A DNA stretch of 64,000 nt from Shewanella violacea DSS12 (GTDB taxonomy: Bacteria > Pseudomonadota > Gammaproteobacteria > Enterobacterales > Shewanellaceae): the NCBI RefSeq assembly GCF_000091325.1, contig NC_014012.1, positions 2,586,824 through 2,650,823 of the forward strand, written 5' to 3'. Positions within the stretch are counted from its first letter, which is position 1. Each line of letters begins with the position of its first letter. Of the stretch, positions 54,528 to 56,110 are shown in pieces. The translations under genes and the position numbers were made by a program. Under the pieces are notes generated by a model. The model searched no databases. It was given only the letters and a program-made list of their open reading frames with translations, and was not told where the DNA came from.

Positions 54528-54604
54528 ACAACCGTAGCTCAGTTGGTTAGAGCACTACCTTGACATGGTAGGGGTCGGTGGTTCGAATCCACTCGGTTGT
54601 ACCA
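54528..54604 (+). tRNA. tRNA-Val (anticodon GAC)
   Basis: 77 bases with encoded CCA. Acceptor ACAACCG/CGGTTGT, D-loop AGTTGGTTA, anticodon loop CTTGACA and T-arm GGTTCGAATCC. It is identical to the two copies at 55925 and 56034 and opens the tRNA array. Confidence 0.97.
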
Positions 54605-54647
54605 ATTCTTTTTAAGTAGAATTAAAACAACTTATGCGTTTGTCGGA

Positions 54648-54724
54648 CGCGGGATGGAGCAGTATGGTAGCTCGTCGGGCTCATAACCCGAAGGTCGTTG
54701 GTTCAAATCCAGCTCCCGCAACCA
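54648..54724 (+). tRNA. Initiator tRNA-fMet (CAU), copy 1 of 9
   Basis: 77 bases. Initiator features are the unpaired C1-A72 end of the acceptor (CGCGGGA..CTCCCGCA) and three G-C pairs in the anticodon stem (TCGGGCTCATAACCCGA). The anticodon is CAU and CCA is encoded. It is nearly identical to E. coli tRNA-fMet. The nine copies have the same sequence. Confidence 0.97.
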
Positions 54725-54767
54725 ATTCTTTATAAGTAGAATTAAAACAACTTATGCGTTTGTCGGA

Positions 54768-54844
54768 CGCGGGATGGAGCAGTATGGTAGCTCGTCGGGC
54801 TCATAACCCGAAGGTCGTTGGTTCAAATCCAGCTCCCGCAACCA
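54768..54844 (+). tRNA. Initiator tRNA-fMet (CAU), copy 2 of 9
   Basis: Identical to copy 1; separated by a 43-bp AT-rich spacer. Confidence 0.97.
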
Positions 54845-54887
54845 ATTCTTTATAAGTAGAATTAAAACAACTTATGCGTTTGTCGGA

Positions 54888-54964
54888 CGCGGGATGGAGC
54901 AGTATGGTAGCTCGTCGGGCTCATAACCCGAAGGTCGTTGGTTCAAATCCAGCTCCCGCAACCA
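54888..54964 (+). tRNA. Initiator tRNA-fMet (CAU), copy 3 of 9
   Basis: Identical to copy 1; its upstream spacer is identical to that of copy 2. Confidence 0.97.
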
Positions 54965-55007
54965 ATTCTTTATAAGCAGAATTAAAACAACTTATGCGTT
55001 TATCGGA

Positions 55008-55084
55008 CGCGGGATGGAGCAGTATGGTAGCTCGTCGGGCTCATAACCCGAAGGTCGTTGGTTCAAATCCAGCTCCCGCAACCA
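55008..55084 (+). tRNA. Initiator tRNA-fMet (CAU), copy 4 of 9
   Basis: Identical to copy 1; the upstream spacer has AAGCAG and TTATCGG variants. Confidence 0.97.
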
Positions 55085-55126
55085 ATTCTTTTTAAGTAGA
55101 ATTAAAACAACTTATGCGTTATCGGA

Positions 55127-55203
55127 CGCGGGATGGAGCAGTATGGTAGCTCGTCGGGCTCATAACCCGAAGGTCGTTGGTTCAAATCCAGCTCCCGCAA
55201 CCA
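55127..55203 (+). tRNA. Initiator tRNA-fMet (CAU), copy 5 of 9
   Basis: Identical to copy 1; the upstream spacer is one base shorter (42 bp). Confidence 0.97.
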
Positions 55204-55246
55204 ATTCTTTTTAAGTAGAATTAAAACAACTTATGCGTTTATCGGA

Positions 55247-55323
55247 CGCGGGATGGAGCAGTATGGTAGCTCGTCGGGCTCATAACCCGAAGGTCGTTGG
55301 TTCAAATCCAGCTCCCGCAACCA
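55247..55323 (+). tRNA. Initiator tRNA-fMet (CAU), copy 6 of 9
   Basis: Identical to copy 1; 43-bp spacer with the TTTTTAAGTAG variant. Confidence 0.97.
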
Positions 55324-55367
55324 ATTCTTTATAAGCAGAATTAAAACAACTTATTGCGTTTATCGGA

Positions 55368-55444
55368 CGCGGGATGGAGCAGTATGGTAGCTCGTCGGGC
55401 TCATAACCCGAAGGTCGTTGGTTCAAATCCAGCTCCCGCAACCA
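55368..55444 (+). tRNA. Initiator tRNA-fMet (CAU), copy 7 of 9
   Basis: Identical to copy 1; the spacer is one base longer (CTTATTGCG). Confidence 0.97.
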
Positions 55445-55487
55445 ATTCTTTATAAGCAGAATTAAAACAACTTATGCGTTTATCGGA

Positions 55488-55564
55488 CGCGGGATGGAGC
55501 AGTATGGTAGCTCGTCGGGCTCATAACCCGAAGGTCGTTGGTTCAAATCCAGCTCCCGCAACCA
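55488..55564 (+). tRNA. Initiator tRNA-fMet (CAU), copy 8 of 9
   Basis: Identical to copy 1; the spacer equals that of copy 4. Confidence 0.97.
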
Positions 55565-55607
55565 ATTCTTTTTAAGTAGAATTAAAACAACTTATGCGTT
55601 TATCGGA

Positions 55608-55684
55608 CGCGGGATGGAGCAGTATGGTAGCTCGTCGGGCTCATAACCCGAAGGTCGTTGGTTCAAATCCAGCTCCCGCAACCA
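55608..55684 (+). tRNA. Initiator tRNA-fMet (CAU), copy 9 of 9
   Basis: Identical to copy 1; the spacer equals that of copy 6. It is the last intact initiator gene of the array. Confidence 0.97.
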
Positions 55685-55728
55685 ATTCTTTATAAGCAGA
55701 ATTAAAACAACTTATTGCGTTTATCGGA

Positions 55729-55800
55729 CGCGGGATGGAGCAGTATCAAACTACTCGGACTCAACTCTTTACGAAATCAAGGCCAAGGTCGTTGCCCTGC
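55729..55800 (+). pseudogene. Decayed tenth tRNA-fMet unit
   Basis: The spacer and the first 18 bases (CGCGGGATGGAGCAGTAT) match the array, then similarity breaks. Only CTCGGACTCAA and AAGGTCGTTG echo the anticodon and variable regions; the T-arm and acceptor 3' strand are lost. The following bases to 55924 contain no recognisable gene. Confidence 0.8.
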
Positions 55801-55924
55801 TTTTATAAAAAGTAATCCAGATCCTGTAAGGAATTATTTTATAAATCTCTTCAAAGAGAAGTGGTGAAGGTGTTACCCTCCCCCTTATAAATAGTATTCC
55901 GGAATCGCAAACAATTTAAACAAT

Positions 55925-56001
55925 ACAACCGTAGCTCAGTTGGTTAGAGCACTACCTTGACATGGTAGGGGTCGGTGGTTCGAATCCACTCGGTTGTACC
56001 A
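55925..56001 (+). tRNA. tRNA-Val (anticodon GAC), second copy
   Basis: Identical to the copy at 54528, with encoded CCA. It follows the decayed initiator unit. Confidence 0.97.
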
Positions 56002-56033
56002 ATTGTTTATAGATAAGATTTAAGTTACACGAT

Positions 56034-56110
56034 ACAACCGTAGCTCAGTTGGTTAGAGCACTACCTTGACATGGTAGGGGTCGGTGGTTCGAATCCACTC
56101 GGTTGTACCA
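56034..56110 (+). tRNA. tRNA-Val (anticodon GAC), third copy
   Basis: Identical to the other two valine genes; 32 bp after the second copy and the last tRNA of the array. Confidence 0.97.

Follow-up and report, generated by a model that had tools for sequence, protein, structure and literature searches.

Nine identical initiator tRNA genes lie in tandem in the genome of Shewanella violacea DSS12, raising the question of what maintains such a run and how its transcript is folded and matured, a matter largely taken for granted for long runs of identical tRNAs. In the window, a stretch of 64,000 nucleotides, ARAGORN and Rfam agree on nine tRNA-Met(CAU) genes (54648-55684) and on three tRNA-Val(GAC) genes starting at 54528, 55925 and 56034. 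The nine copies are 100% identical over 77 nt, recur at a measured spacing of 119-121 bp and all encode CCA; their anticodon stem shows the three G-C pairs typical of initiator tRNAs, and C is the first base of the genes, as read from the sequence. An earlier note had outlined this arrangement as nine identical initiator genes in units of about 120 bp, with one tRNA-Val gene 5' of the array, two 3' of it and a single terminator at its end, and every element of that outline was confirmed, the only plus-strand terminator-like site in 54200-56450 starting at 56142 (Table 1). As in metZWV-like tandem initiator tRNA operons, several initiator genes are arranged head to tail on the same strand with no internal terminator, and the array most likely constitutes one polycistronic tRNA operon, presumably read as a single transcript. 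The candidate promoter block is kept in all four relatives whose alignment extended to it (ten relatives were aligned), and is absent from the output of a consensus promoter scan. The MATE efflux protein encoded upstream has its closest matches at Shewanella loci, with S. benthica nearest (94%), and the gene downstream of the array looks like that of an acetate-CoA ligase carrying an acetyltransferase domain.

Table 1. Features of the initiator tRNA array and its surroundings (positions in the window).
Feature	Position	Strand	Evidence
MATE efflux gene, used as locus anchor, upstream of array	52916..54289	+	protein similarity
Candidate promoter TTGCAA-17-TACTAT, GC-rich discriminator	54452..54480	+	by eye, inferred
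tRNA-Val(GAC)	54528..54604	+	ARAGORN, Rfam
Pseudoknot spacer after Val 1	54605..54635	+	flank scoring, genome-wide signature
tRNA-fMet 1	54648..54724	+	ARAGORN, Rfam
Pseudoknot spacer after fMet 1	54725..54755	+	flank scoring, signature, covariation
tRNA-fMet 2	54768..54844	+	ARAGORN, Rfam
Pseudoknot spacer after fMet 2	54845..54875	+	flank scoring, signature
tRNA-fMet 3	54888..54964	+	ARAGORN, Rfam
Pseudoknot spacer after fMet 3	54965..54995	+	flank scoring, signature
tRNA-fMet 4	55008..55084	+	ARAGORN, Rfam
Pseudoknot spacer after fMet 4	55085..55115	+	flank scoring, signature
tRNA-fMet 5	55127..55203	+	ARAGORN, Rfam
Pseudoknot spacer after fMet 5	55204..55234	+	flank scoring, signature
tRNA-fMet 6	55247..55323	+	ARAGORN, Rfam
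Pseudoknot spacer after fMet 6	55324..55354	+	flank scoring, signature
tRNA-fMet 7	55368..55444	+	ARAGORN, Rfam
Pseudoknot spacer after fMet 7	55445..55475	+	flank scoring, signature
tRNA-fMet 8	55488..55564	+	ARAGORN, Rfam
Pseudoknot spacer after fMet 8	55565..55595	+	flank scoring, signature
tRNA-fMet 9	55608..55684	+	ARAGORN, Rfam
Pseudoknot spacer after fMet 9	55685..55715	+	flank scoring, signature
fMet-like loop-expanded element (psi-fMet), decayed 3' acceptor strand	55729..55830	+	comparison with genus counterparts
Possible 3' half of a second psi-fMet element	55862..55915 (approximate)	+	by eye
tRNA-Val(GAC)	55925..56001	+	ARAGORN, Rfam
tRNA-Val(GAC)	56034..56110	+	ARAGORN, Rfam
Pseudoknot-like trailer of last Val	56111..56137	+	flank scoring, signature
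Intrinsic terminator	56142..56166	+	terminator scan

The genome is a single contig of 4,962,103 bases with 127 tRNA genes, and the search for other initiator loci that the earlier note had called for returned just one, at position 3734718 and 91% identical. Regarding tRNA numbers, PMC10059138 gives 60 tRNAs in its text and 127 in its Table 1 for one genome. The initiator run is thus not the only one in this genome, where further runs comprise 8 Val(TAC), 8 Glu, 9 Lys, 7 Tyr and 7 Asn genes, along with an Arg/Ser cluster of 17 genes. The Arg/Ser cluster (G000:C1:3579693-3582195, G000 being S. violacea DSS12) contains block repeats and two degenerate Arg copies with low scores of 36.6 and 32.5 bits.

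The dosage of initiator genes had been read as suggesting selection for fast translation initiation. When 274 genomes sampled across the class were scanned, the initiator pattern was matched in 238, nearly always once or twice, and S. violacea DSS12 has the highest count at 10, followed by 4; moreover, PMC5143459 links high initiator copy number to growth rates in Vibrio. Within the genus, an exact anticodon-stem pattern applied to 129 genomes, among which drafts may undercount, identified 1-11 initiator genes per genome (median 5), with at least 10 in seven genomes, S. violacea DSS12 among them. The 16S genes were counted with an exact 16S pattern, replacing an SSU family search that assessed no more than five candidates in each genome and overlooked drafts. 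Among 50 genomes assembled in one to three contigs, the numbers of initiator and 16S genes are correlated (Spearman 0.60, uncorrected for relatedness and including some genomes with perhaps undercounted 16S numbers of 1-3), and the ratio observed here (10 initiator to 14 16S genes, 0.714) sits at the genus median (0.724). Together with the seven further tRNA types that have at least six genes in this genome, this ratio makes selection for exceptionally fast initiation quite improbable. An unusual dosage for fast translation need not be invoked, and exceptional dosage was set aside as a candidate explanation, the number of initiator genes being ordinary for the genus once normalised to 16S genes.

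The number of fMet genes at the MATE locus ranges from 0 to 10 across 59 mapped genomes, and the spacers that follow copies 3 through 9 are, in turn, of types A, B', B, A+, A, B and A+, the order that would be expected from duplication of a block of several units. The between-species range and the block-like spacer order support the earlier suggestion of length change by unequal crossing-over. The nine-copy count is that of the assembly, and near-identical 120-bp units are easily miscounted; however, the spacers differ enough to distinguish several units, and nine or ten copies recur at the MATE locus of other genomes (G003, G125 and G140, with nine in G140), making an assembly artefact very improbable. 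Gene conversion, hinted at in the earlier note for the uniform genes, is not required. Arrays in 16 of 58 genomes, S. violacea DSS12 counted, contain the same 77-nt sequence, a finding that weakens gene conversion as the sole cause and suggests that purifying selection explains much of the uniformity, yet all array copies are identical in 33 of the 54 genomes with at least three of them.

The spacers do vary, as had been noted, but their variation is compensatory, involving covarying pairs, a point that the earlier reading had missed. The spacers are 43 nt long, and the typical order after the CCA is ATTCT, two T, ATAAGT, AGAAT, TAAAACA and ACTTAT, with ATTCT pairing with AGAAT (stem 1) and ATAAGT with ACTTAT (stem 2) in the layout of an H-type pseudoknot. 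In the spacer after fMet 1, stem 1 spans 54725-54729/54738-54742, stem 2 spans 54732-54737/54750-54755 and the A-rich loop lies at 54743-54749. The second helix changes between species with pairing kept (ATAAGT/ACTTAT, ATTAGT/ACTAAT, ATAAC/GTTAT, ATCAAT/ATTGAT). An alignment of 32 hand-chosen spacers from 27 genomes, made by sequence only, revealed that 83% of cells pair, with a covariation of 0.462 versus 0.226 (sd 0.022) in shuffled alignments, none of 500 shuffles reaching it, and 0.06-0.21 in slid controls; changes on both sides were detected for all six stem-2 pairs and for four of the five stem-1 pairs. A set of 28 gap-free rows, likewise chosen, yielded 94% pairing and a covariation of 0.452 versus 0.165. 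In an unselected set of 103 genome-spacers from 31 genomes, defined by a TTCT..AGAA stem at the CCA end and scored at the best of three offsets, stem 2 is paired at six of six positions in 56 and at five of six in 35, versus 0 and 21 in the reversed-strand control.

A pseudoknot descriptor matched 38 of the 53 genomes with testable spacers, where dinucleotide shuffles predict 3.6 (the genomes being related, not independent), and did not find the motif in 15 that still have fMet arrays. Among spacers of at least 28 nt, the descriptor matched 92 of 149 distinct fMet-fMet spacers (3.0 expected, 82 starting right after the CCA), 27 of 30 Val-fMet (0.9 expected, 20 at offset 0), 7 of 7 fMet-Val (0.2 expected, 7 at offset 0) and 11 of 33 Val-Val spacers (0.8 expected, 11 at offset 0), leaving 57 fMet-fMet, 3 Val-fMet and 22 Val-Val spacers that did not score. 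Most fMet-Val junctions (22 of 29) are shorter than 28 nt and too short for the pseudoknot, and nine of the 11 Val-Val matches present other stem sequences (CTCT/AGAG with TTCAC/GTGAA or a variant). Two signatures encompassing stem 1 and the A-rich loop, with stem 2 not required, match 12 and 5 times genome-wide, with 11 and 4 of these matches in the fMet/Val and Ala-Glu arrays, and their backwards-read controls match 2 and 0 times. The motif was also scored in 19 of the 107 distinct tRNA flanks of the genome (3.1 expected) and not in the other 88; seven of the 19 belong to the fMet/Val operon, and some of the others may be chance matches or terminators. Across the order, a strict sequence motif, which would miss diverged pseudoknots, was identified in 4 of 247 genomes, comprising 3 of 18 in the genus and 1 of 229 outside it (stem 1 only). 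The Ala-Glu array (G000:C1:1772682-1775152, L295) contains relics of Glu-like elements and the CTCT/AGAG version of the pseudoknot signature.

All 13 Rfam matches in the window at gathering score are tRNA, with none for the spacers or for the psi-fMet element described below, and sub-threshold non-tRNA matches just overlap tRNA genes. A title- and abstract-level literature search, with subscription journals mostly outside it, returned no account of the spacer pseudoknot, which appears undescribed, or of psi-fMet. The comparative data suggest that each spacer encodes an H-type layout, mostly from the first nucleotide after the CCA, with two covarying crossing helices, a short loop 1 and an A-rich loop 3. 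Both helices would presumably form simultaneously.

Ordinary tandem amplification could also have generated an array in which the spacers are functionless and seem paired as hairpin-forming DNA carried along in unit duplication. Consistent with this, several tRNA types are amplified in the genome, spacers and genes travel together, and the motif is missing from the aforementioned 15 genomes. However, in every one of the stem-2 pairs both partners differ between species although the loop remains rich in A, the shuffled and slid controls fall far lower in covariation, and Val-Val spacers with different stem sequences share the same layout and start, rendering functionless spacers unlikely. A second alternative is that the two helices exclude each other and operate as a switch, which would link how one tRNA folds or is processed to the transcription of its successor. 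The stems are AU-rich and weak, with predicted energies of -1.5 and -1.7 kcal/mol each alone, and covariation does not separate simultaneous from alternative pairing. Against a switch, which we deem rather unlikely, different species share a short first loop, nearly abutting stems and an A-rich loop of roughly 7 nt, and this combination is a fit to H-type pseudoknots.

The best explanation overall, to which we assign moderate probability, is an amplified operon with pseudoknot spacers that would serve in insulation or processing. Initiator genes would have entered an older Val-Val operon, this being the presumed direction of the move, and would then have been amplified in step with rRNA gene number, supplying initiator tRNA for about 14 rRNA operons. 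Since neighbouring tRNAs are identical, mispairing between their acceptors is possible, with the 5' acceptor strand of one tRNA pairing with the 3' strand of the next. Nested folding of two units without pseudoknots assigned a probability of 0.98 to such a swap, with -67.1 kcal/mol for the swapped fold versus -57.7 kcal/mol for two cloverleaves, a prediction that ignores co-transcriptional folding and would hold for other identical tandem tRNAs too. A compact pseudoknot folding once the CCA has been transcribed could close each unit and shield its 3' end, blocking 3'-5' exonucleases, and the tRNAs would be freed by endonucleases, with RNase P cutting at the 5' end of the following tRNA and another enzyme at the CCA. 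The function proposed for the pseudoknot is to keep identical neighbours from mispairing, to control 3' processing, or both. A covarying element, structured and repeated right after each CCA, would constitute a natural test system for strand-swap insulation and exonuclease control in tRNA operons. The explanations weighed here are not mutually exclusive, and the likelihoods assigned to them do not sum to one.

Also missed by the earlier note, an exact match to the first 18 nt of fMet begins at 55729 and introduces an fMet-like element of about 102 nt. Comparison within the genus identifies this 'tenth copy' as a decayed representative of psi-fMet, a conserved fMet-like element with expanded loops that is interspersed in the initiator arrays of the genus. 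These elements are about 87-106 nt long, keep the fMet acceptor strands and the CCA, and have lost the anticodon and expanded their loops. A strict detector, which misses the decayed copy in the window, identified 62 copies in 25 of 59 genomes, versus 7 in a reversed control, although a few listed matches of 113-120 nt look spurious. The 41 psi positions that differ from fMet show a mean between-species identity of 81%, versus 40% for MATE four-fold sites, and psi identity is the higher in all 45 pairs among ten genomes. Spacers reach similar identity (as the best of many, a value biased upward), and since they are about equally conserved, selection on psi-fMet itself is not separable from selection on the array. 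Covariation was slight, with both partners altered in 1 of 23 pairs, as the sequences are too similar, and folding z-scores for five sequences ranged from -2.2 to 0.0. A bolder reading, possible but doubtful in our assessment, is that the tRNA-3' pseudoknot represents a new class of cis-acting RNA for insulation and 3' maturation, and psi-fMet a selected tRNA-like RNA instead of a dead gene; with an acceptor arm and CCA and no anticodon, psi-fMet would act as a decoy, a processing signal or a spacer. Similar loop-expanded relics were noticed by eye beside Gly, Glu, Lys, Arg, Leu and Pro genes in this genome, and at the MATE locus of G080 (L229) two genuine Val genes flank two tRNA-Val-like elements whose D, anticodon and T loops seem to contain insertions.

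Initiator arrays of the genus were mapped at two loci, rlmKL and MATE, in 59 genomes (50 few-contig genomes and 9 drafts near the window). Initiator genes are present only just upstream of rlmKL in 35 genomes, only at the MATE/Val site in 15, including S. violacea DSS12, at both loci in eight (G011, G013, G072, G073, G083, G104, G122 and G139) and at neither in one. When devoid of fMet, the MATE locus usually has two tRNA-Val genes, with no tRNA in four genomes, and seven Ferrimonas MATE loci present Val without fMet. A tree built from 81 MATE protein rows, of which 20 have fMet at the locus, 50 lack it and 11 are unscored, requires at least five changes in fMet presence, four of them forced by starred branches, gain and loss being indistinguishable on this quick tree with long branches. 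No fMet remnant above shuffles was detected at the rlmKL site of S. violacea DSS12. Among the 16 genomes without fMet at rlmKL, psi remnants are clear in two (G010 and G067) and weak in two (G071 and G090), and the signal is below shuffles in the other 12. Initiator genes probably entered the Val operon on more than one occasion and were then lost from the old site, a course that the remnants in G010 and G067 fit. The locus would also document the relocation of a tRNA gene family from one operon to another, genomes with the old site, both sites or the new site occurring within one genus.

Several peculiarities of these loci were also observed. The rlmKL locus of G139 (L214) has seven initiator genes in the orientation opposite to that of the other mapped genomes, suggesting an inversion, and fMet/Val arrays near the MATE gene lie on the opposite strand at L081, L084, L087 and L234 (G090). 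The rlmKL match is in two pieces in G035 (G035:C1:1724283-1726411) and G149 (G149:C1:308479-310591), with one stop in the latter. A mobile or phage-borne tRNA array was considered and found no support in phage records, none of which covers 80% of the region; the array is limited to a single initiator and a single Val type, and the neighbouring MATE gene was found in 128 of 129 genus genomes.

The metZWV operon of Escherichia coli comprises three genes and is not known to include tRNA-Val, and differs in both respects from the array described here. Tandem initiator operons are already known: according to PMC11480407, metZWV carries initiator tRNA genes in tandem within a single transcription unit, as is presumed here, and its deletion impairs growth under specific conditions. 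Vibrio resembles S. violacea DSS12 in its high initiator gene number and encoded CCA, according to PMC5143459, and PMC7661048 indicates that tRNA gene number can rise through duplication in the laboratory. psi-fMet usually keeps both acceptor strands and the CCA and expands its loops, unlike the tyrT repeats and rtT RNA of E. coli. These are, as psi-fMet is here, tRNA-derived partial repeats within a tRNA operon. H-type RNA pseudoknots have crossing stems, a short loop 1 and an A-rich loop 3, as does the layout of the spacers of this array, and the spacer elements are distinguished from them by their placement directly after the tRNA CCA and their repetition with each tRNA.
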